Positions 30,550-40,351 of a DNA stretch of 64,000 bases are shown here, one piece after another (the first letter of the stretch is position 1; each line of letters opens with the position of its first letter). Location of the stretch: NCBI RefSeq assembly GCF_005869845.1, contig NZ_VAWF01000001.1:1612001-1676000 (forward strand), given 5' to 3'. Both the position numbers and the translations under genes were made by a program. The notes under the pieces were generated by a model. It had not been told where the DNA came from. It did no database searches and was given only the letters and a program-made list of their open reading frames with translations. Source of the stretch: Fodinibius saliphilus. Its GTDB lineage: Bacteria > Bacteroidota > Rhodothermia > Balneolales > Balneolaceae.

Positions 30550-31107
30550 ATGAGTAAGAAAAGGTTTACCAAGCTATTAAAAAATCTCAGAGATCCTAAA
30601 AATAAGTGCTATGATGAACTATTTTCCCAGATTTATAGTGAACTAAAAAGACTTGCCTACTCAAAGCTTCAAAAAGAACGAGAGGATATTACCTTAACAG
30701 AAACAGCGTTAGTACATGAGGTTTATCTCAAAATGATAGATCAGACACAGATTCAGGCTAATGACAAAAATCACTTCATGGCCATAGCAGCACGATGTAT
30801 GCGTCAAATACTTATCGACCATGCCCGCAAAAAGAAAGCGGAAAAGCGTGGTGGTGATAAAAACGACGTAACGTATATTGATGAACTTCTTAAACAAAGG
30901 CACAAAACAGAAGAACTAATCGACATTGATAACGAACTCAATAAGTTGGCAAAGCTTGACCAGCGGATGGCCGATGTTGTAGTACTTCGTTTCTTTGGAC
31001 AGATGACAGTATCCGACACAGCAAAAGCCTTGAACATATCAGAACGAACGGTTAAAAGAGATTGGGCGAAAGCACGCGGATGGCTTTATAAAGAACTAAA
31101 AGGATAA
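30550..31107 (+). CDS. ECF-type RNA polymerase sigma factor (kinase-associated family)
   Basis: A 185-residue extracytoplasmic-function sigma factor. Region 2 is present (LKRLAYSKLQKE, LVHEVYLKM, FMAIAARCMRQILIDHARKK). Region 4 contains a helix-turn-helix (VVLRFFGQMTVSDTAKALNI, SERTVKRDWAKARGWLY). The form IDHARKKKAEKRGG is that of sigma factors usually found beside serine/threonine kinases with TPRs in Planctomycetota, Rhodothermota and relatives. The kinase gene follows after 23 bp. No anti-sigma factor gene is adjacent. I propose it reads the TG(T/A)CCyC-N16-CGCA promoters downstream at 35063-40135. That motif is absent from its own 112-bp upstream gap. Confidence 0.93.
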   Translation: MSKKRFTKLLKNLRDPKNKCYDELFSQIYSELKRLAYSKLQKEREDITLTETALVHEVYLKMIDQTQIQANDKNHFMAIAARCMRQILIDHARKKKAEKRGGDKNDVTYIDELLKQRHKTEELIDIDNELNKLAKLDQRMADVVVLRFFGQMTVSDTAKALNISERTVKRDWAKARGWLYKELKG

Positions 31108-31130: not shown

Positions 31131-33947
31131 ATGGAGCAAAATCAATGGGAAAAGGTCAACAAAATTGTTGACACTGCACTTGAGCTAGATAAAAAAGAGA
31201 GAACTACTTACATCGAAGAAAATTGCAAAAATGACAACAAGCTTAAGCAACACGTAACCCAACTTCTGGCTGCAATTGAAGAATCAGAAACCGAAGATTT
31301 TTTAGCAACACCTGCCACCTATATCGATGAAATGGCCGGCGAGTTAACTGCAACAGATGCCACTGCCTCATCCATGGTTGGCCAACATATTGGCAACTAT
31401 CACCTTGATGAACTTATTGGCCATGGTGGTATGGGATCTGTTTTTAAAGGTAGGCGCGCCGATGGAGCCTATGAAAAAGAAATAGCCATCAAGATATTAC
31501 GGCGCGGTATGGACACCCCTTCCAATATTGCACGGTTTAAAAGGGAACGAAATATTTTGGCAAATCTGGAACACCCGAATATTGCCCGCCTACTAGATGG
31601 AGGGCTTACCGAAGAGGGCTTGCCCTATTTAGTCATGGAATATGTGGACGGCACTCCCTTGCTCGAATACTGTAACCAAAATAATCTAACCATTGAAGAA
31701 CGATTAGAATTATTTGAACAAGTTTGTTTTGCTGTTCAACATGCCCACCAAAATGCCATTATTCATCGCGACCTGAAGCCTTCTAACATCTTAGTTAATA
31801 ATGAAGGCAAGGTCAAAGTTCTGGATTTTGGTATTGCAAAACTTATAAGAGCGGAAAGTTCGGAGGGAGTAACCTTTCAAACTCGCACCGGCGCCCGCAT
31901 GCTAACAGTAGGTTATTCGTCACCGGAACAGCTGGAAGGTCAAGCCATAACTACGGCTACCGACGCTTATGTCCTTGGAATATTGCTATTTGAACTCTTG
32001 GCAGATGTTCATCCATTTGAAATGGATGATAAAAACTTGGTAGAAATTGAAAAACAAGTACGAGAAAAGCGTCCCAAAAACCCTTCGGATAAATATGCGC
32101 AACTATCTTCTACTGAAAAGAAAAAAATCGCTCAATACCGGTCTACTGATACAGCTAAATTAACTAGTCTACTTACAGGCGACCTTGATGCTATTGTGAT
32201 GAAAGCCCTTCGCAAAGAACCTGGTCACCGATATAGTTCTGCTGAGCAACTTCTGGAAGACCTTAACAGGCGGAAAACGAACCTCCCCATTATTGCTAGG
32301 GAAGATACCTTCCGTTATAATTCCTCCAAATTTTTAAAACGGCACAAGACCAGGCTTTCTGTAGCAGCAGCTTTTTTGTCGATTATTATCAGCCTTACCG
32401 TTTTTTATACTTGGCAAATTGCTCAAGAAAAAGATAAAGCACAATTAGAGGCACAAAAAGCACAAGAAGTAAGCAGCTTTTTAACGGATATGTTTAGGGC
32501 CAGTAATCCAAATTATAATCCTAAAGATACCGTTACTGCTGCCACGTTTTTAAAACGGGGGCAAGAACGTATTGATCAACTTAATGACCAGCCGGAGATA
32601 CAAGGCCAGCTGCTTGAAATAATGGGGCGAGCATATTCCGAGATTGGACAATTTGATAAAGCAGCCCCCCTTCTAAATAAAAGTCTCAAACTCCGGGAAA
32701 CATACCAAGGAACTACAAGTACTGCCTATATACAAAGTCTTGACGCATTGGGTGTTCTTGAACGACTCAAGGGAAATTTCGCAGAGGCAGAATCCCTTAC
32801 TCAACGCTCTCTCTCGGTGCTCAAAAATAATCAGCCTAATAATAAAAAGCTTCTTGTCAATGGGTTAAATGAGCTTGGGCTAATACTTGACCAACGGGGT
32901 AAATATGAGCAGGCCGATTCTGTTTATAAAGAGGTGCTTTACATTCAACAACAACTATATAAATCCGAACATCCTAAACTAGCACATATTTTCAATAACA
33001 GGGCGGGAGTTTTACGAAAACTTGGGAAGTATGAAAAAGCAGAAGAACTTTACCGAAAAGCTTTAAATATTTGGAAAGCCCAATACGGTGATATTCATCC
33101 AAGTACCGCCATGGGCTACCATGACCTTGCCTTAATACTTAACCAACGAGGAAAATTAGAGCAAGCCGATTCCCTTTATCATAAAGGGTTAACAATTGAC
33201 AAAAAGTTATACGATGCCCCAGAAAGACACATTGCTCAATCGTATAATAATATTGGCATTTTTTATGGGCAACAAGGCCGATACCAAGAAGCTAAGCCTT
33301 ACTTAACCAAGGCAGTAGCTATGCGCCGTAAACTATTTGATGAATACCATCCCAAACTTGCGGAAAGTTTGAATAATTTGGGTCGACTTAATATCGAACT
33401 GGGAAACTACGAAAAAGCCCATTCTTATCTTGAAGAAGCACTTAAAATTGATCGAAAAAATTTTGGCGGAAACCATCCTTATATAGCCGGTGATTTGGCA
33501 AATCTAGCACGCATTGAAAAAGAAAAAGGTTCACTGGATATTGCCAAAAAGCATTTCGAAAAATCCTTGTCAATATTTAAAGCTAACTTACCTTCAGATC
33601 ATAGAAAAATAGCTGGTATACTTACAGAGATTGGAAAACTGCATATCATCAAAAACAATATATCGGAAGCTATACCAATGTTAGAAAAAGCATTGGCTAT
33701 CAAAAAGAAATCATATGACAAGAGGAGTTGGCAAATTGCTTACACAAAATCGATATTGGGTAACGCTTTGGGTAAGAATATGGAATATACCAAAGCTGAA
33801 TCTTATTTAATTCCAGCCTATGAAACACTAAAAAAAGAACGCGGTTCCTCTGATACTTTTACCAACCATGCTAAAAATAGTATAATAGAACTCTACAAGG
33901 ACTGGGGTAAAACAGATATGGCAAAGAAGTATTCTTCAACTGAATAA
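31131..33947 (+). CDS. Transmembrane serine/threonine protein kinase with C-terminal TPR repeats
   Basis: A 938-residue kinase. Residues 1-65 form a small helical N-terminal domain (WEKVNKIVDTALEL; VTQLLAAIEESETEDFL). The Hanks-type kinase domain spans about 88-380: glycine loop GHGGMGSV, Lys121 in EIAIKIL, IHRDLKPSN at 211-219, DFG at 232-234 and GYSSPEQ at 261-267. One transmembrane helix lies at about 408-428. The remaining 500 residues are tetratricopeptide repeats (for example ALGVLERLKGNFAEAESL, NNLGRLNIELGNYEKAHSYL). The kinase should face the cytoplasm and the TPRs the periplasm. It is cotranscribed with the ECF sigma gene and likely controls it or its targets. Confidence 0.94.
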   Translation: MEQNQWEKVNKIVDTALELDKKERTTYIEENCKNDNKLKQHVTQLLAAIEESETEDFLATPATYIDEMAGELTATDATASSMVGQHIGNYHLDELIGHGGMGSVFKGRRADGAYEKEIAIKILRRGMDTPSNIARFKRERNILANLEHPNIARLLDGGLTEEGLPYLVMEYVDGTPLLEYCNQNNLTIEERLELFEQVCFAVQHAHQNAIIHRDLKPSNILVNNEGKVKVLDFGIAKLIRAESSEGVTFQTRTGARMLTVGYSSPEQLEGQAITTATDAYVLGILLFELLADVHPFEMDDKNLVEIEKQVREKRPKNPSDKYAQLSSTEKKKIAQYRSTDTAKLTSLLTGDLDAIVMKALRKEPGHRYSSAEQLLEDLNRRKTNLPIIAREDTFRYNSSKFLKRHKTRLSVAAAFLSIIISLTVFYTWQIAQEKDKAQLEAQKAQEVSSFLTDMFRASNPNYNPKDTVTAATFLKRGQERIDQLNDQPEIQGQLLEIMGRAYSEIGQFDKAAPLLNKSLKLRETYQGTTSTAYIQSLDALGVLERLKGNFAEAESLTQRSLSVLKNNQPNNKKLLVNGLNELGLILDQRGKYEQADSVYKEVLYIQQQLYKSEHPKLAHIFNNRAGVLRKLGKYEKAEELYRKALNIWKAQYGDIHPSTAMGYHDLALILNQRGKLEQADSLYHKGLTIDKKLYDAPERHIAQSYNNIGIFYGQQGRYQEAKPYLTKAVAMRRKLFDEYHPKLAESLNNLGRLNIELGNYEKAHSYLEEALKIDRKNFGGNHPYIAGDLANLARIEKEKGSLDIAKKHFEKSLSIFKANLPSDHRKIAGILTEIGKLHIIKNNISEAIPMLEKALAIKKKSYDKRSWQIAYTKSILGNALGKNMEYTKAESYLIPAYETLKKERGSSDTFTNHAKNSIIELYKDWGKTDMAKKYSSTE

Positions 33948-34121: not shown

Positions 34122-35015
34122 TCAATTATTTTTTATACCAAAATACTTTTTTACCTCTTCATAGTTATTCAAATCAATTGGTAGCTTTCCGACCTTGGCT
34201 TTTGTTTTCAGTTGCTTTCCGCCGGGAATAAGCACATACCGAAAACTGCTACTTGTTCCAATAGCTCTGGGAAGAGTACCAGTAGCATCAGGATTCATAT
34301 AACCAATCCGTAATTGTTGCGGGTTTAGCTGAAAAAAGAAACTGTAATTAGGATTTCCGGGGCTACTTGCCTTAGCTAACGGCAATGCATAAACCGATTG
34401 AGTATTAAAATCGGTATACACTTTTACAATCCCCTTATCAATAATATCTTGTGTCATGGCATTTGCCGAGATATCAAAGTACCGATATTTAGTCGTACTT
34501 TGCGTATTTCCATTCCATTGCGAAGGATTTACCCAATTGGAATACATTACATTGGCAGTACCTTTTAGATTAATGGGCGTTCCCCAACCACTAGCTGTCT
34601 TGGGGCCATACAGATTGAAGGTACTTTTATTTAAATAATAATCTCCCTCTTTACCCAATGATGATTGTGGTGCTGAACTTCCGGAATAAATTTGGCTACC
34701 ATCTTTGCCATCTTGTCCATCCTGACCGGGAGGGCCCTGCAGGCTTATTGGCGTTCCCCATCCCTGGTCATTTTTGGGCCCATACATATCACCAGTACTG
34801 GTATCTAAATAGTAATCTCCCATATCTCCTTTGCTACTACCGGGTACCCCCTGTCCGGAATAAATCTTACTCCCATCATCCCCGGCCGGGCCTACGGGAC
34901 CTTGCTGTCCTTCAGGACCTTGTGGTCCTTGTTCACCGGCAGGACCTTCACAACCAAAAAACAAAGGTAAAGTTGCGATCAAAAATAGCGTCAATACTCG
35001 TAACAATCGTCTCAT
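34122..35015 (-). CDS. Collagen-like lipoprotein with duplicated module (paralogue 1)
   Basis: A 297-residue predicted lipoprotein. The signal peptide ends in a lipobox, LPLFFGC, with Cys22. Directly after it are about eight collagen-type Gly-x-y triplets (GPAGEQGPQGPEGQQGPVG). Two copies of a module of about 45 residues follow, each running from IYSG through YYLdTstGdMYGPK to GWGTPI, with more Gly-x-y between them (GPPGQDGQDGKDG). The C-terminal 130 residues are a separate, unrecognised domain. It should be attached to the outer membrane or cell surface. It has its own candidate ECF promoter at 35063-35089 and lies in tandem with a paralogue. Confidence 0.88.
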   Translation of the reverse strand: MRRLLRVLTLFLIATLPLFFGCEGPAGEQGPQGPEGQQGPVGPAGDDGSKIYSGQGVPGSSKGDMGDYYLDTSTGDMYGPKNDQGWGTPISLQGPPGQDGQDGKDGSQIYSGSSAPQSSLGKEGDYYLNKSTFNLYGPKTASGWGTPINLKGTANVMYSNWVNPSQWNGNTQSTTKYRYFDISANAMTQDIIDKGIVKVYTDFNTQSVYALPLAKASSPGNPNYSFFFQLNPQQLRIGYMNPDATGTLPRAIGTSSSFRYVLIPGGKQLKTKAKVGKLPIDLNNYEEVKKYFGIKNN

Positions 35016-35062: not shown

Positions 35063-35089
35063 TGCGAGAAACCATTTGAAGAGAGGACA
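35063..35089 (-). promoter_or_regulatory. Candidate ECF promoter (TGTCCTC-N16-CGCA) for collagen-like paralogue 1
   Basis: On the minus strand TGTCCTC begins at 35089 and CGCA occupies 35066-35063, exactly 23 bases from the first T. The CGCA ends 48 bases from the start codon. It lies just downstream of the terminator of the preceding gene, so this gene has its own transcript. The form TGTC---N16-CG-- is like promoters of known ECF groups (for example ECF41). Confidence 0.7.
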
Positions 35090-35094
35090 AATTA

Positions 35095-35129
35095 AAAAGG
35101 ACCCCACAAAAAAATTGTAGAGCCCTTTT
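35095..35129 (-). terminator. Terminator of collagen-like paralogue 2
   Basis: On the minus strand AAAAGG-GCUCUAC can pair with GUGGGGU-CCUUUU, using several G-U pairs, around a U-rich loop. It is followed by UUUAAUUU. It begins 18 bp after the stop codon of the gene ending at 35148. Confidence 0.65.
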
Positions 35130-35147
35130 AAAAAAAGCTAAAACTCA

Positions 35148-36002
35148 TCACTCAAAGTTATAAAACTCCTTAAATGACTGCTGATCTACTACCTCCATTT
35201 TTTTAAGAGTCACAATCCCTGTATCGTCTACTTCTGTATTGTCTTGGGTATTATTGGCCTCTGTACGAATGATCTCAATTTGATCATAAGGTATGCCTGT
35301 TTTATTCGGCTCTGTATTTATCCGGAAATATACATTCCCGTTAACAAAATTGTGCTCTACAGAATACTGGATATTTCGAGCGCGTCCCGGTACTGAATAA
35401 TAGATCTGATTGCTTCCGGTATCATACATTAAGTACACCGACCAAGAACTCTGTTTCATCTCTGTTTCTGTTAAATTACTGAAGACGGCAACAAACTGTG
35501 GACTTGAACTAAAGTCATGTTGAGGATAAATATAGCGCGTTACATTCGCATTCCCATCAGCTCCTTTTAAATTCACGGCAGTTCCCCACCCTTGACTTGT
35601 TTTGGGACCATACATATTGTAGTTGGATTTATCCAAGTAAAAGTCTCCATTCTCTCCCAATGAAGAAGCTGGTGCACCAGATCCCGCATGAAATTTGCTG
35701 CCATCTTCCCCATCTTGGCCCATCAGTACCATAATCGGGTTCCCCCAACCGCTATCTTTCTTGGGACCATACATTTCTCCGGTATTCGTATTCAGGTAAT
35801 AATCACCATTACTGCCAGTACTGCTTGCGGGCGCACCCTTTCCGGAGTACATCATACTCCCGTCATCACCGGCCGGTCCTACCGGTCCCTGTGGACCTTC
35901 AGGGCCTTGGGTTCCTTGCTCTCCGGCGGGGCCTTCACACCCCATAAAAAGGGGGAAAACTGCTATCAAAAATAATATAACCACTCGTGAGAATCGTCGC
36001 AT
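35148..36002 (-). CDS. Collagen-like lipoprotein with duplicated module (paralogue 2)
   Basis: A 284-residue predicted lipoprotein, clearly homologous to its neighbour ending at 34122. It has the same signal peptide pattern with lipobox FPLFMGC at Cys22 and the same Gly-x-y run (GPAGEQGTQGPEGPQGPVG). It also has the same two modules (MYSGKGAPASSTGSNGDYYL and FHAGSGAPASSLGENGDFYL, each ending in GWG). The C-terminal domain differs from that of the paralogue, so the tandem pair shares the anchor and stalk but not the tip. A weaker copy of the local promoter motif lies at 36045-36071, and a terminator separates it from the next gene. Confidence 0.88.
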   Translation of the reverse strand: MRRFSRVVILFLIAVFPLFMGCEGPAGEQGTQGPEGPQGPVGPAGDDGSMMYSGKGAPASSTGSNGDYYLNTNTGEMYGPKKDSGWGNPIMVLMGQDGEDGSKFHAGSGAPASSLGENGDFYLDKSNYNMYGPKTSQGWGTAVNLKGADGNANVTRYIYPQHDFSSSPQFVAVFSNLTETEMKQSSWSVYLMYDTGSNQIYYSVPGRARNIQYSVEHNFVNGNVYFRINTEPNKTGIPYDQIEIIRTEANNTQDNTEVDDTGIVTLKKMEVVDQQSFKEFYNFE

Positions 36003-36044
36003 AACTCTATAGTTTTATGAATATTATAAGTTCACATAGAATAA

Positions 36045-36071
36045 TACGTAATCGAAAGTGAAGTGAGCTCA
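36045..36071 (-). promoter_or_regulatory. Weak copy of the ECF-type promoter motif for collagen-like paralogue 2
   Basis: On the minus strand TGAGCTCACTTCA starts at 36071 and CGTA occupies 36048-36045, again 23 bases from the first T. It agrees with the copy at 35089 (TGTCCTCTCTTCA) at 10 of 13 positions but lacks the TGTCC core. CGTA is a common ECF -10 element. The distance to the start codon is 43 bases. Confidence 0.4.
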
Positions 36072-36367
36072 AAGCAGCTGTTCTAACTTTATTGTTCAAA
36101 TGCTATTGATGATGTTTGTTAGCTGGGTGACTCACAGACTGTCACTCGGTTGCATGAACCATCATTAATACAGATAGAAATGCACTGGCGTATGTGCACT
36201 AATTTTAGTCAACGACCAGCTTTTACTTTCATATGCAATTGGACTGTTATAGTTTCGGCTTCATTCATAAAAAGCCACCACCAAAATCAGAATGAATCAT
36301 CATAACAAGAAAATATTGGCCTACCCTTTTATTAAAATCCGCCTTTAAAATAGAGATAAATAAAAAA

Positions 36368-36395
36368 GCCCACAGCAAAATAAATTGCTGTGGGC
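36368..36395 (-). terminator. Rho-independent terminator of the PD40 lipoprotein gene
   Basis: A perfect 11-bp stem, GCCCACAGCAA (36368-36378) with TTGCTGTGGGC (36385-36395). On the minus strand it is followed by six U. It lies 22 bp after the stop codon. Confidence 0.85.
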
Positions 36396-36416
36396 CTGAA
36401 GGGGCATGTAATTTAC

Positions 36417-37598
36417 CTATTTTACCGGGCTCCAGAACGGAAAACGGTCGCTAGCAGAGTTTACTGTTAGGTTGGTCGCGCTCGTGCCATCGGTATTAAT
36501 AATATACACTTCGTCATTTCCATCCCGATCGCTTTGGAATGAAAGCTTACTACCGTCCGGTGACCATGAAGGGAAAACATCACTCCCTGAATTATTGGTT
36601 ACCCGCTTGAGATCACTGCCATCGGTACTCATAATATATATCTCATTGTTTCCATCCCGATCACTTGCAAACGCAATTTTCGAGCCATCGGGGCTGTAGA
36701 TAGGTATCCCATCATAATGCGTGTTATCAGTTATTTTTTGCAGGGCCGTTCCTTGGGAATTCATCGTATAAATTTCATCATCACCATCTGCATCACGACT
36801 ACTTACAAACGCAATGCGATCACCATCGTGGGACCATGTTCCAGCTACATCTTGAGCATTCGGATTATTTGTTAGATTTGTTTGGTTACTCCCGTCAGCA
36901 TTCATCATATAAACTTCATAGTCTCCATCACGATCTGTGCTGAAAAGAATCTGGCTGCCATCCGGCGACCAGCGTGGAAGCAGATCATGTCCCGAAGAAT
37001 TGGTAAGTTGAGTACGATTGGAACCGTCGGCGTTGATCATGTATATATTGTTGTCTGACCAACTGGTGTATGCAATCTTGGTACCGTCGGGAGAAATTGA
37101 AGGATAATATTCCATTTCTGCATTGTTGGTTATCCGCTCTTGACCGGTACCGTCCGGATTCGTTACATACAAATCGGGATTAGTATTGCGACCACTGAGA
37201 AACACAATTTGATTGCTCAAAACAGCCTCACATGTAATATCAAAACTAGCCGTAGTTGTATTTTCCGCGGTAATATCCACTTTTTTAGGATTATTTCCGT
37301 CTACCGAGCAGTTATCGGCAATGCCCGAGAGTTCGGCATCGTAACTGCTCTCTTCTAGATCTTCTACGGTGATCGTCTCGTCAGTCCCAATGGAATGGTC
37401 AGCCCCATCCACAGTAATAGTATATCCGTCAGAATCCACATCCGAGCCACTGGTACTGGTTGTCACTTCCAGAGTACCTGTTGTGGGTTCTTCTGGGGCT
37501 GGTTCAGGGTCTGAATCAGTACCGGTACTGTTATCACTGCAAGAAATTATTAATCCTATTAACAAAAGTGGTATTAAAGTTCGTAGTAGTTTCCTCAT
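36417..37598 (-). CDS. TolB-like PD40 beta-propeller lipoprotein
   Basis: A 393-residue predicted lipoprotein with lipobox LIGLIISC followed by an acidic/Pro linker. A small beta domain rich in Thr and Asp (residues about 42-130) resembles PEGA-type domains. The rest is a beta-propeller of about six PD40 (WD40-like) repeats with the pattern SPDG-KIA--S---DGN-EIY-M--DGS----LTNN. Such propellers bind proteins or glycans at the cell surface; the ligand is unknown. It shares the candidate ECF promoter motif (37786-37812), although 188 bases upstream, so its leader is unusually long. Confidence 0.88.
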   Translation of the reverse strand: MRKLLRTLIPLLLIGLIISCSDNSTGTDSDPEPAPEEPTTGTLEVTTSTSGSDVDSDGYTITVDGADHSIGTDETITVEDLEESSYDAELSGIADNCSVDGNNPKKVDITAENTTTASFDITCEAVLSNQIVFLSGRNTNPDLYVTNPDGTGQERITNNAEMEYYPSISPDGTKIAYTSWSDNNIYMINADGSNRTQLTNSSGHDLLPRWSPDGSQILFSTDRDGDYEVYMMNADGSNQTNLTNNPNAQDVAGTWSHDGDRIAFVSSRDADGDDEIYTMNSQGTALQKITDNTHYDGIPIYSPDGSKIAFASDRDGNNEIYIMSTDGSDLKRVTNNSGSDVFPSWSPDGSKLSFQSDRDGNDEVYIINTDGTSATNLTVNSASDRFPFWSPVK

Positions 37599-37785
37599 AA
37601 TTTTAACCTTTATTTAATATGATTGCTATGATTATTTAAGAATCCTTCAAGACCCCATCACAATCAATTCCTAACTAGTTCATTTAAGAAGATGGAATTG
37701 TATAACCTTTGCTAAAGCAAAGCCCTCTTGGAATTCATTCTATCTGTAGATGTTGTCTTATTATCTAATCTGTTACACAGCACTA

Positions 37786-37812
37786 TGCGAAACGTTCAAT
37801 TGAAGGGGGACA
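37786..37812 (-). promoter_or_regulatory. Candidate ECF promoter (TGTCCCC-N16-CGCA) for the PD40 lipoprotein gene
   Basis: On the minus strand TGTCCCC starts at 37812 and CGCA occupies 37789-37786, 23 bases from the first T, identical in spacing to the sites at 35089, 40077 and 40109. The CGCA ends 188 bases from the start codon. The TGTCCCCC block also forms one arm of the hairpin at 37804-37848. Confidence 0.65.
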
Positions 37813-37848
37813 TTTTTTAATAGCTAATGCTCTATAAAAAAGCCCCCT
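37804..37848 (-). terminator. Long hairpin after the IPT lipoprotein gene
   Basis: On the minus strand AGGGGG, UUUUUU and AUAG pair with CUAU, AAAAAA and CCCCCU, forming an interrupted stem of about 16 bp. It starts 41 bp after the stop of the gene ending at 37889. There is no U-tract after it, so termination is uncertain. It overlaps the -35 block of the next promoter. Confidence 0.45.
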
Positions 37849-37888
37849 ATTAATCAATAACTCGTCATGAATAAAAGTCCTACTCTGT

Positions 37889-40012
37889 TTATTGCTGTTC
37901 ACACTTAAGGGTCATACCAGTAATCCACATATCTTTACCCCCCTTAGGATCAATGTTATCATCATCGCTACGCCCTGGCCAGCTCGAAGTTGTGACCCCC
38001 ATCGTAAATACATGCACCTTGTTGTTTGCATCACGATACGTTTCTACTGCCGAAGGGAATCCTCGGCCTTTCTTGTCATTCTCAAACTCAAAAAACGTGG
38101 ACTTTTTACTACCATCGATGAAGAGAGGCATTCCCTCATCCGCATAAACCCCCAAGTATGGAAGTCCACCAATCTCAGACGCATTTTGTCCCACAAGAAC
38201 AACTCCTCCACCAGGTATTCGCACACCTCCATTGTATTTGGTAGATCCACTATCATCAAATTTTTGCTGGTGTACCCATTGCTCAACCCCACTGGGTCCA
38301 AGTCGCTGTACATAAGCATCTTTGATATATACATTAACATCAGGCTCAAGCGAAGTAGCCGTATTGCCATATACAACGGCTCCTCCATCCGGCATTGGAA
38401 TAGGCTGTTTAATTTGTCTTGTTAGCTGTTTGCTTGAGGCTTCGATTTGCAAATTACTGTTAAGTCTGGCAAATATGGTATTACCATTATCATTTCTTGC
38501 ACCCAAAAATATACGGCTTTGGTCGTCAGCAGCTATGCTGTAAGGTGCCGTATACGCCTCAATTTGTTTCACAGTCTGGAGGGTGCCATTTTTTTGAAAT
38601 TTAGCAATAGCTACATCATGAGATCCCTTGTTTGGCTCTTTATTTTTGGGTGTAAAAGGACCGCTCATTCTAGCAGAAACCAATATTTCACCCGACGGTA
38701 GCACGGCAATCGTTTCATGATTTAGCTCGTCGAGATCAGGTGAGCCAAACTGCTGGGCCCATTCAAGACTTCCAGAACCGGCATCAAGACGTGCTAATAC
38801 TACATCTCTACCCCCTGTATTAGAATTGCCATCTTTTAGAGTTGAGAAGTGATACTTTAGCTTTGCTTCTCCTAATCCTTGATTGGTAACACCACGCTCT
38901 CCCACGATATACACACTGTTACCGTCAACTTCAATACCTCTCCATGTCGTAGATTTTAATTTTGAATCAAATCTTGATTCCCAAACTTTATCTCCTTCAG
39001 TATCATATTTTGCAGCTACCCCTCGGTCACGCAGTACCATATATAAATTGCCATTCGAATCCATGGCCATGTCCTGCGATTTATCGTCTTTATCCGAGGT
39101 TGTAAGTCCCTGACTAACCCACTGCAGATTAGCATCAAGCTGGACGTCATTTCCATAGCATGCCTGAATATTGGTAATAACCTGCAAGGGAACACCATCA
39201 GAAATTTGTTCTCCAACAACAACTTTTACAGGACCGCCGCTAACACCTTCGGGCACAACCGTATAAAGCGTATCACTACTGACGCTATCAACATCTGCCA
39301 TTATACCCCCAAAGGAGATCTTATTTTTTGAAGATTTCTTTGCAAAATATTTACCCTTTATGGCTATAGTTGCCCCTATAACAGCGGTATCGGGCTCCAT
39401 AGCAATTATTGTGGGTGCTAACACATCAAAATCAGGTCCTGTTGCAGATTTCTGTTTTACTGTTACCTTAACCGGTCCATCACTGGCATTGTCCGGAACC
39501 TTTGTTATTAATCGATCTTTTGATGCATCATTTACTGGAGCTGCCGTCCCATTAAATGTGATTGTTATATCAGAAGAATTCGTACTAAAATTCATACCCT
39601 CAATCGTAACCTCAGTACCGACTATTCCACTGTCGGGTTTTATTGAACTGATACCAGGGGCTTTGGCTTCTACCGTAAATTGGGGACCGGACACCGTCTC
39701 CCCACCGACCGTAACTTTTACTGGCCCACTGGATGCTCCTTTTGGCACCTTGGTTTTCAATTGCGATTCTGTGGCACTTTCAACTGGAGCAGCTTCTCCC
39801 CCTATGGTAATGGCATTAGACGTCTTTTCGGCACTAAATCCCTTTCCAGATATTGTAACCAACGTCCCGGGAGGACCGCTATCGGGTTGTATACCTGTAA
39901 TTTCCGGATTCGGCATACCGTTTCCACCTCCACCACAGGAGGTTAAGAAAAATGCCATAATCAGTATTACAAATAGTCTTAATGAACACCTGATGTAGTT
40001 TAATATCTTCAT
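37889..40012 (-). CDS. IPT/TIG-domain surface lipoprotein with beta-propeller
   Basis: A 707-residue predicted lipoprotein with lipobox AFFLTSC followed by GGGGNG. Three IPT/TIG immunoglobulin-like domains follow (residues about 35-115, 120-200 and 202-285). Each begins I---PDSG--GT-VTI-G--F and ends GPVKVTV. The C-terminal 420 residues look like an SBBP-type beta-propeller (for example DSNGNLYMVLRDRGVAAKYD, DAGSGSLEWAQQFGSPDLDE, RLGPSGVEQWVHQ). It should be surface-exposed. Its candidate ECF promoter lies at 40051-40077, in a short region shared with the divergent small gene. Confidence 0.88.
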   Translation of the reverse strand: MKILNYIRCSLRLFVILIMAFFLTSCGGGGNGMPNPEITGIQPDSGPPGTLVTISGKGFSAEKTSNAITIGGEAAPVESATESQLKTKVPKGASSGPVKVTVGGETVSGPQFTVEAKAPGISSIKPDSGIVGTEVTIEGMNFSTNSSDITITFNGTAAPVNDASKDRLITKVPDNASDGPVKVTVKQKSATGPDFDVLAPTIIAMEPDTAVIGATIAIKGKYFAKKSSKNKISFGGIMADVDSVSSDTLYTVVPEGVSGGPVKVVVGEQISDGVPLQVITNIQACYGNDVQLDANLQWVSQGLTTSDKDDKSQDMAMDSNGNLYMVLRDRGVAAKYDTEGDKVWESRFDSKLKSTTWRGIEVDGNSVYIVGERGVTNQGLGEAKLKYHFSTLKDGNSNTGGRDVVLARLDAGSGSLEWAQQFGSPDLDELNHETIAVLPSGEILVSARMSGPFTPKNKEPNKGSHDVAIAKFQKNGTLQTVKQIEAYTAPYSIAADDQSRIFLGARNDNGNTIFARLNSNLQIEASSKQLTRQIKQPIPMPDGGAVVYGNTATSLEPDVNVYIKDAYVQRLGPSGVEQWVHQQKFDDSGSTKYNGGVRIPGGGVVLVGQNASEIGGLPYLGVYADEGMPLFIDGSKKSTFFEFENDKKGRGFPSAVETYRDANNKVHVFTMGVTTSSWPGRSDDDNIDPKGGKDMWITGMTLKCEQQ

Positions 40013-40050
40013 AAGAAAGTATACGCTTAATTATCACTTTACATACAACA

Positions 40051-40077
40051 TGCGTACACTTTTGAAAAAGGGGGACA
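40051..40077 (-). promoter_or_regulatory. Candidate ECF promoter (TGTCCCC-N16-CGCA) for the IPT lipoprotein gene
   Basis: On the minus strand TGTCCCC starts at 40077 and CGCA occupies 40054-40051, 23 bases from the first T. The CGCA ends 39 bases from the start codon. It faces away from the matching plus-strand copy at 40109-40135. Confidence 0.7.
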
Positions 40078-40108
40078 AAAAATAACAAACCAGTTTTTAA
40101 GAGTAATT

Positions 40109-40135
40109 TGACCTCTCTTCGTCCAAATTTCCGCA
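40109..40135 (+). promoter_or_regulatory. Candidate ECF promoter (TGACCTC-N16-CGCA) for the 60-residue protein
   Basis: TGACCTCTCTTC starts at 40109 and CGCA lies at 40132-40135, 23 bases from the first T. Its -35 block matches that of collagen-like paralogue 1 (TGTCCTCTCTTC) at 11 of 12 positions. The CGCA ends 33 bases before the ATG at 40169. Confidence 0.65.
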
Positions 40136-40168: not shown

Positions 40169-40351
40169 ATGGAAAAACAACGTTGGCAACGAATAGAAAC
40201 AATTATCGAAGAAAGTTGGGCTTTTGAGACGATGCAAGAAAAAAAAGAGTATGCCCAAAAAGCATGTAGTAATAATATGCAGCTTTATAAAGAAGTGGTT
40301 GCACTTTTAAAAGGAATACACCATGCAGAAAAAGAGGGATTTTTAGAGTAA
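40169..40351 (+). CDS. 60-residue protein resembling only the N-terminal domain of the neighbouring Ser/Thr kinase
   Basis: The product begins MEKQRWQRIETIIEESWAF and ends LLKGIHHAEKEGFLE. It aligns over its whole length with residues 1-58 of the kinase at 31131 (MEQNQWEKVNKIVDTALEL ... LLAAIEESETEDFL). Shared positions are Trp6, the Y-----C spacing, and V--LL--I---E-E-FL. The stop follows exactly where the kinase linker begins, and no kinase sequence continues downstream in any frame I read. It has its own copy of the local ECF promoter motif, so I favour a real small regulator gene over a kinase remnant. A decayed pseudogene remains possible. Confidence 0.6.
   Translation: MEKQRWQRIETIIEESWAFETMQEKKEYAQKACSNNMQLYKEVVALLKGIHHAEKEGFLE

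Follow-up and report, generated by a model that had tools for sequence, protein, structure and literature searches.

Putative promoters of a kinase-linked ECF sigma factor upstream of surface lipoprotein genes in Fodinibius saliphilus and its relatives

We analysed a stretch of 64,000 nucleotides (hereafter, the window) of the salt-loving bacterium Fodinibius saliphilus (GCF_005869845.1, contig NZ_VAWF01000001.1, positions 1,612,001–1,676,000 of the forward strand). It carries a gene for an extracytoplasmic function (ECF) sigma factor at position 30550, followed by a Ser/Thr kinase gene at 31131, a row of lipoprotein genes, and a gene for a small protein of 60 amino acids (aa) at 40169. The analysis points, with good confidence, to the two-box sites ahead of the lipoprotein and small-protein genes being promoters of the 30550 sigma factor, which would be activated by the kinase and drive the lipoprotein genes and, with them, a separately encoded copy of the kinase N-terminal domain (N-domain).

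The original prediction listed four strong sites and a weaker one upstream of five clustered genes. The four strong sites are present at the coordinates claimed for them (Table 1), and in each of them CGCA begins 23 bases, no more and no fewer, from the first T; the downstream genes, four encoding proteins with a lipoprotein signal (by eye) and the 60-aa open reading frame, also are as claimed. The pattern TGWCCYC-N16-CGYA has four matches in the window (dinucleotide shuffles: mean 0.12, maximum 1) and nine in the whole 3.6-Mb genome, compared to five for the reversed pattern (genome-wide tests were pattern searches with reversed-pattern controls). Sites of the CGCA form are above background: they make up four of the nine genome matches, all inside one 5-kb cluster, the other five having CGTA. 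The claim of a shared motif proves stronger than stated, as conservation runs from 2 bases before TG to about 12 bases after CGCA.

Close orthologues of the 30550 sigma (67–86% identity) are found in 8 of 147 related genomes, the named ones being Fodinibius halophilus and Aliifodinibius species; loci around the matches were retrieved (G and L labels below denote genomes and loci). Together with F. saliphilus, these form the clade-A set of nine genomes, of which G077 lies outside the genus Fodinibius/Aliifodinibius (Balneolaceae). The gene order xerD / sigma / kinase / lipoprotein row / small gene / ggt is mostly kept in the genus relatives, and the lipoprotein genes differ in number and kind; in G077 the flanking genes of the locus differ. 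In the eight relatives, a longer motif, TTTGTCCyC-N16-CGCATgTTaCTATGTA, is seen upstream of nearly all lipoprotein genes of the island and of the small gene; conservation ahead of orthologous genes is thus confirmed in all eight genomes with an orthologous sigma. At lipoprotein genes of clade A, the consensus reads TTTGTCC.C.TTt.G.......tTACGCATgtTaCTATGTA, with constant boxes and spacing, a variable mid-spacer, and CGCA mostly 30–60 bases upstream of the start codon. An iterated matrix gives 42 sites above 16 bits across 21 loci; a Markov control of equal length has none.

A very strict long consensus had no matches even in the F. saliphilus genome and was loosened to a 20-position version with at most three mismatches. 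Among 12 genomes of the genus, this version has two to seven matches per genome in all eight with a clade-A sigma and 0, 0, 1, and 1 matches in the four without; outside the genus set there are 0–2 matches per genome, corresponding to background, and matches with at most one mismatch are confined to clade-A genomes. In some relatives, unlinked lipoprotein genes are also preceded by the motif, namely a conserved CarboxypepD_reg lipoprotein gene (G003, G005, G009) and, elsewhere, PD40 or collagen-like genes. Hence, the suggested self-contained regulon holds in part: it is local in F. saliphilus, as far as the patterns show, but includes unlinked genes in relatives, and no motif copy is found on the coding strand ahead of clade-A sigma or kinase genes themselves.

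Some loci have a different composition. In G003, two tandem sigma/kinase pairs share one lipoprotein island (L062, L063), the second kinase being split into frames of 465 and 363 aa. G007 has PD40 lipoprotein genes with near-identical promoters on three contigs (L081, L083, L084), as if copied around the genome. The xerD–ggt interval of G010 (L122:8064-10883) keeps the kinase alone, the sigma, small gene, and lipoproteins being gone. F. saliphilus itself has a broken sigma/kinase pair (G000:C1:1365937-1366632), with the sigma in three frame pieces and a stop in the N-domain.

The F. saliphilus genome encodes several paralogues of the 30550 sigma. Paralogous sigma genes adjoin their own lipoprotein, kinase, or enzyme genes, and their promoters are equal in spacing and different in letters. 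Clade A is associated with TGTCC-N18-CGCA and recognition helix SERT or SDRT; clade B, with TGAGCT-N17-CGTA and, mostly, SEST or SKST; clade C, with TGTCAC-N17-CGCA and SERT, the site here preceding a gene divergent from the sigma gene. An unbiased scan for TGNNN-N18-CGNA ahead of lipoprotein or N-domain genes yields 36 sites at clade-A loci, 15 at clade-B loci, and none in reversed sequence. The C/CGCA type is seen at 29 of 36 clade-A sites and at 0 of 15 clade-B sites (Fisher p 5e-8, a nominal value that overstates the significance, as the sites share a common descent).

The B-type pattern matches 30 times in the 12 genus genomes, compared to once in the control, and most of the matches precede lipoprotein genes, the clade-B kinase gene, or other genes whose products bear an export signal as judged by eye. 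No B-type matches are found in G009 and G010, for each of which the search gave a single sigma of the family, not of clade B. An exception is G004, where a clade-B sigma is present and the strict B pattern has no matches, the site there being TGACCTG..CGTA. Genomes lacking a sigma clade almost wholly lack the promoter type of that clade. Since the promoter type tracks the Arg/Ser difference in the recognition helix, the linked 30550 sigma very probably reads the clade-A sites, which supports its proposed role as the reader.

Between clade-C sigma genes and the divergent gene, agmatine deiminase-like by eye, TTTGTCAC-N17-CGCA is seen in three species (L056:16273, L093:9742, L121:6783). Near-identical TGAGCTT..TT.TCAAG......ACGTAT sites occur in four genomes (L141, L145 (position 1501), L136, L150 (minus strand, position 1528)); they have no clear lipoprotein gene downstream and possibly mark a conserved non-coding target or another gene family.

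The site at 36071–36045 had been described as a weaker copy of the motif. Its sequence, position, and spacing are as described; however, it is a clade-B-type site, the promoter type of a paralogous sigma. For it and its counterparts in G003, G004, G005, and G006, the clade-B matrix gives higher scores than the clade-A matrix does, and G002 has a similar counterpart, TGGGCTC..CGTA. The view of it as a decayed copy is rejected, as the type recurs in relatives and fits the clade-B matrix better. In G009, where the search found no clade-B sigma, a clade-A promoter, TGTCACC..CGCA, precedes the collagen-like gene beside the small gene. For the CarboxypepD_reg lipoprotein gene, the site is A-like in G003, G005, and G009, and of the B type in G008, a genome for which the search gave no clade-A sigma. 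Target genes may thus be wired to either the clade-A or the clade-B sigma, and orthologues apparently switch between the two.

The 30550 sigma (185 aa) comprises only sigma2 and sigma4. Its likeness to the ECF43 group is by features, the only library profiles matched being TIGR02999 (192.5 bits, curated cut-off 126.15) and PF07638. The kinase gene starts 24 bases after the sigma gene end, and this adjacency is kept in all clade-A loci. The Pkinase domain covers residues 90–375 of the kinase, and the long TPR region has TPR profile matches; the top solved-structure match is Xanthomonas citri PknS (9EED; residues 4–380, E 6e-56), spanning the N-domain. In all aligned sigmas, Thr is invariant at the third position of the sigma2.2 segment equivalent to DAED, that is, at the position of the ECF43 phospho-threonine. 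Sigma2.2 nevertheless keeps charge: TETA of the 30550 sigma has one Glu, and several orthologues have TETE or SETE.

PknS phosphorylates the ECF43 sigma factor EcfK of X. citri (PMC13147305), which, together with Thr at the phospho-site position of the aligned sigmas, makes phosphorylation by the linked kinase the likely switch. From the sequences we infer not only this step and the identity of the reader, but also the signal and the feedback. The membrane kinase would sense an envelope signal via its TPR region and phosphorylate the 30550 sigma, probably at the invariant Thr of sigma2.2; the sigma would then bring RNA polymerase to the motif-bearing promoters, switching on the row of surface lipoproteins and the small copy of the kinase N-domain; the latter probably binds the sigma or the kinase, providing feedback. 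The gene behind the 36071 promoter would be wired instead to the paralogous clade-B sigma.

Several observations weigh against this model. The Fisher test takes no account of common ancestry, and the loci that yielded the sites also served to build the motif matrices; an acidic sigma2.2 residue is retained in several clade-A sigmas, so phosphorylation need not be the sole switch; G010 has one strong A-like site and no clade-A sigma; and G001 and G011 retain the small gene with a motif-like site, though the clade-A sigma is gone from these genomes and another sigma must read the site there. The latter fact, the presence of several paralogues in F. saliphilus, and the use of the TGTC type by clade C as well would agree with the sites being promoters read by another sigma, either a paralogue or a different ECF factor, with little contribution from the 30550 sigma. 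We consider this unlikely, as, across the genus, matches to the clade-A motif go with the clade-A sigma, and the paralogous loci bear different promoter types beside their own sigma genes.

The conserved stretch of about 45 bp exceeds the usual ECF promoter, as would be expected if the motif were the site of a separate DNA-binding regulator and not a promoter. However, two boxes at a fixed spacing, their distance from the start codon, and the covariation of both boxes with the sigma clade resemble −35 and −10 elements, and no linked DNA-binding regulator gene besides the sigma gene is seen in these loci, making such a regulator quite improbable. Promoters could also travel with duplicated genes, and the collagen-like and PD40 genes indeed form paralogous families; a remnant copied along with lipoprotein genes and not selected is, however, hardly credible and already largely refuted by unrelated gene families carrying the motif (those of the TIG lipoprotein, the CarboxypepD_reg lipoprotein, and the N-domain protein), by boxes and spacing that are kept while the mid-spacer varies, and by conservation between orthologues whose sigmas are 68–86% identical. 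Reading by the 30550 sigma remains the preferred explanation of the sites.

The small protein aligns to kinase residues 1–60, with M1, W6, I12, and L39 invariant among 20 sequences, and is confidently predicted to fold as a three-helix bundle (mean pLDDT 88). For the N-domain, nothing credible was recovered by sequence from Pfam, NCBIfam, or the PDB; 9EED was not recovered with the N-domain profile alone; and fold comparison of the small-protein model returned generic three-helix folds only (best Z 5.3), none pointing to an informative family. The small gene with its promoter site is present in eight of nine clade-A genomes, G002 having a degraded remnant. It is under purifying selection (dN 0.105, dS 0.87 in the one pair with measurable dS). 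Stand-alone copies, including those of G001, G008, and G011, differ from kinase domains by a one-residue loop insertion. In G011 (L115:7049-7322) and G001 (L116:7708-7989), the small gene is left between xerD and ggt, the sigma, kinase, and lipoproteins being lost from the locus. In G060 (L071:4974-5800) and G057 (L114:5052-5908), the gene after a clade-B-like sigma encodes only an N-domain (59 and 68 aa, respectively), the kinase body being absent; in G060, a gene that is pckA-like by eye comes next.

These N-domain-only remnants beside sigma genes and the degraded copy in G002 could mean that the duplication of a kinase left the small protein behind as a non-functional fragment. The chances of this are low, as the stand-alone copies, drawn from nine genomes, group apart from the kinases by their shared loop insertion, and the open reading frame is intact, with a conserved promoter and dN well under dS. 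The existence of N-domain-only genes, the promoter conservation, the selection, and the distinctness of the set suggest that the kinase contacts the sigma through its N-domain and that feedback comes from the small protein, this being the least certain part of the model. In PknS, the N-terminal 83 residues have no known role and, according to the authors, "may play a functional role" (PMC13147305). As a tentative proposal, the N-domain may be the sigma-binding part of PknS-type kinases, and its stand-alone copy, expressed from a promoter of the sigma itself, a built-in brake or titrating decoy coupling two paralogous regulons; the coupling is proposed because the small-gene promoter scores well with both the A and the B matrix.

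Table 1. Features of the sigma/kinase locus and the lipoprotein island (window coordinates)
Feature	Position	Strand	Basis or remark
ECF sigma factor, clade A, proposed reader	30550..31107	+	TIGR02999 / Sigma70_ECF; sigma2.2 TETA; recognition helix SERTVKRDW
Hanks-type Ser/Thr kinase: N-domain, kinase, hydrophobic stretch (by eye), TPR region	31131..33947	+	domain profiles; PknS (9EED) relative
N-terminal domain of the kinase (~60 aa), family shared with the 40169 small protein	31131..31310	+	alignment
Collagen-like repeat lipoprotein A	34122..35015	-	profiles; lipobox by eye
Putative clade-A promoter TGTCCTC-N16-CGCA	35063..35089	-	start codon (34122..35015 gene) 47 bases on
Collagen-like repeat lipoprotein B	35148..36002	-	profiles
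Putative clade-B-type promoter TGAGCTC-N16-CGTA	36045..36071	-	start codon (35148..36002 gene) 42 bases on
PD40 beta-propeller lipoprotein	36417..37598	-	profiles
Putative clade-A promoter TGTCCCC-N16-CGCA	37786..37812	-	start codon (36417..37598 gene) 187 bases on
IPT/TIG-domain and beta-propeller lipoprotein	37889..40012	-	profiles
Putative clade-A promoter TGTCCCC-N16-CGCA	40051..40077	-	start codon (37889..40012 gene) 38 bases on
Putative small-gene promoter TGACCTC-N16-CGCA	40109..40135	+	start codon (40169 gene) 33 bases on
Stand-alone kinase N-domain (60 aa), predicted three-helix bundle	40169..40351	+	alignment; structure prediction

Kinase-activated ECF sigmas are known from few cases. 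A limited search of open-access literature gave no promoter motif for this group and nothing relevant on Fodinibius or Balneolaceae sigma regulons. Here, promoter, sigma clade, and targets can be read jointly in about a dozen genomes, giving a natural code between a recognition-helix residue and a −35/−10 pair, along with a proposal for the role of the PknS N-terminal segment. A little-known kind of bacterial signalling thus becomes readable from DNA and testable, with a pattern kept in eight sister species.

ECF41 sigma factors have a C-terminal SnoaL-like extension, and their promoters are of the form TGTC---N16-CG--. The resemblance to the promoters described here led the original prediction to the ECF41 comparison, which does not fit: the 30550 sigma lacks a SnoaL-like domain and is kinase-linked, the kinase-linked ECF43-like group being closer. 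Classical pairs of an ECF sigma and an anti-sigma, whose promoters are autoregulated, also may have a small regulator under sigma control, as proposed here; however, this locus has no anti-sigma gene, the sigma gene has no site, and the small protein is a member of the kinase N-domain family rather than of any known anti-sigma family. As in the EcfK–PknS pair of X. citri and the EcfP–PknT pair of Vibrio parahaemolyticus, the sigma gene adjoins a membrane Ser/Thr kinase gene, and the kinase shares with PknS the order of N-segment, kinase, transmembrane stretch, and TPR, with homology running through the N-segment. In ECF43, Thr replaces an acidic residue of the sigma2.2 DAED motif, e.g., in QTTA or QATE, and 15.8% of natural members keep a negative charge beside Thr (PMC13147305); the 30550 sigma likewise has Thr where the canonical sigma2.2 is acidic, but retains Glu in TETA, unlike an ECF43 sigma2.2 that has lost all its charged residues. 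Regulon targets of the known pairs are type VI secretion system genes in Xanthomonas and polymyxin resistance in Vibrio (PMC8999054, PMC13147305). The F. saliphilus system differs from them in having lipoprotein targets beside the sigma gene, a readable promoter motif, and a stand-alone kinase N-domain in the putative regulon.

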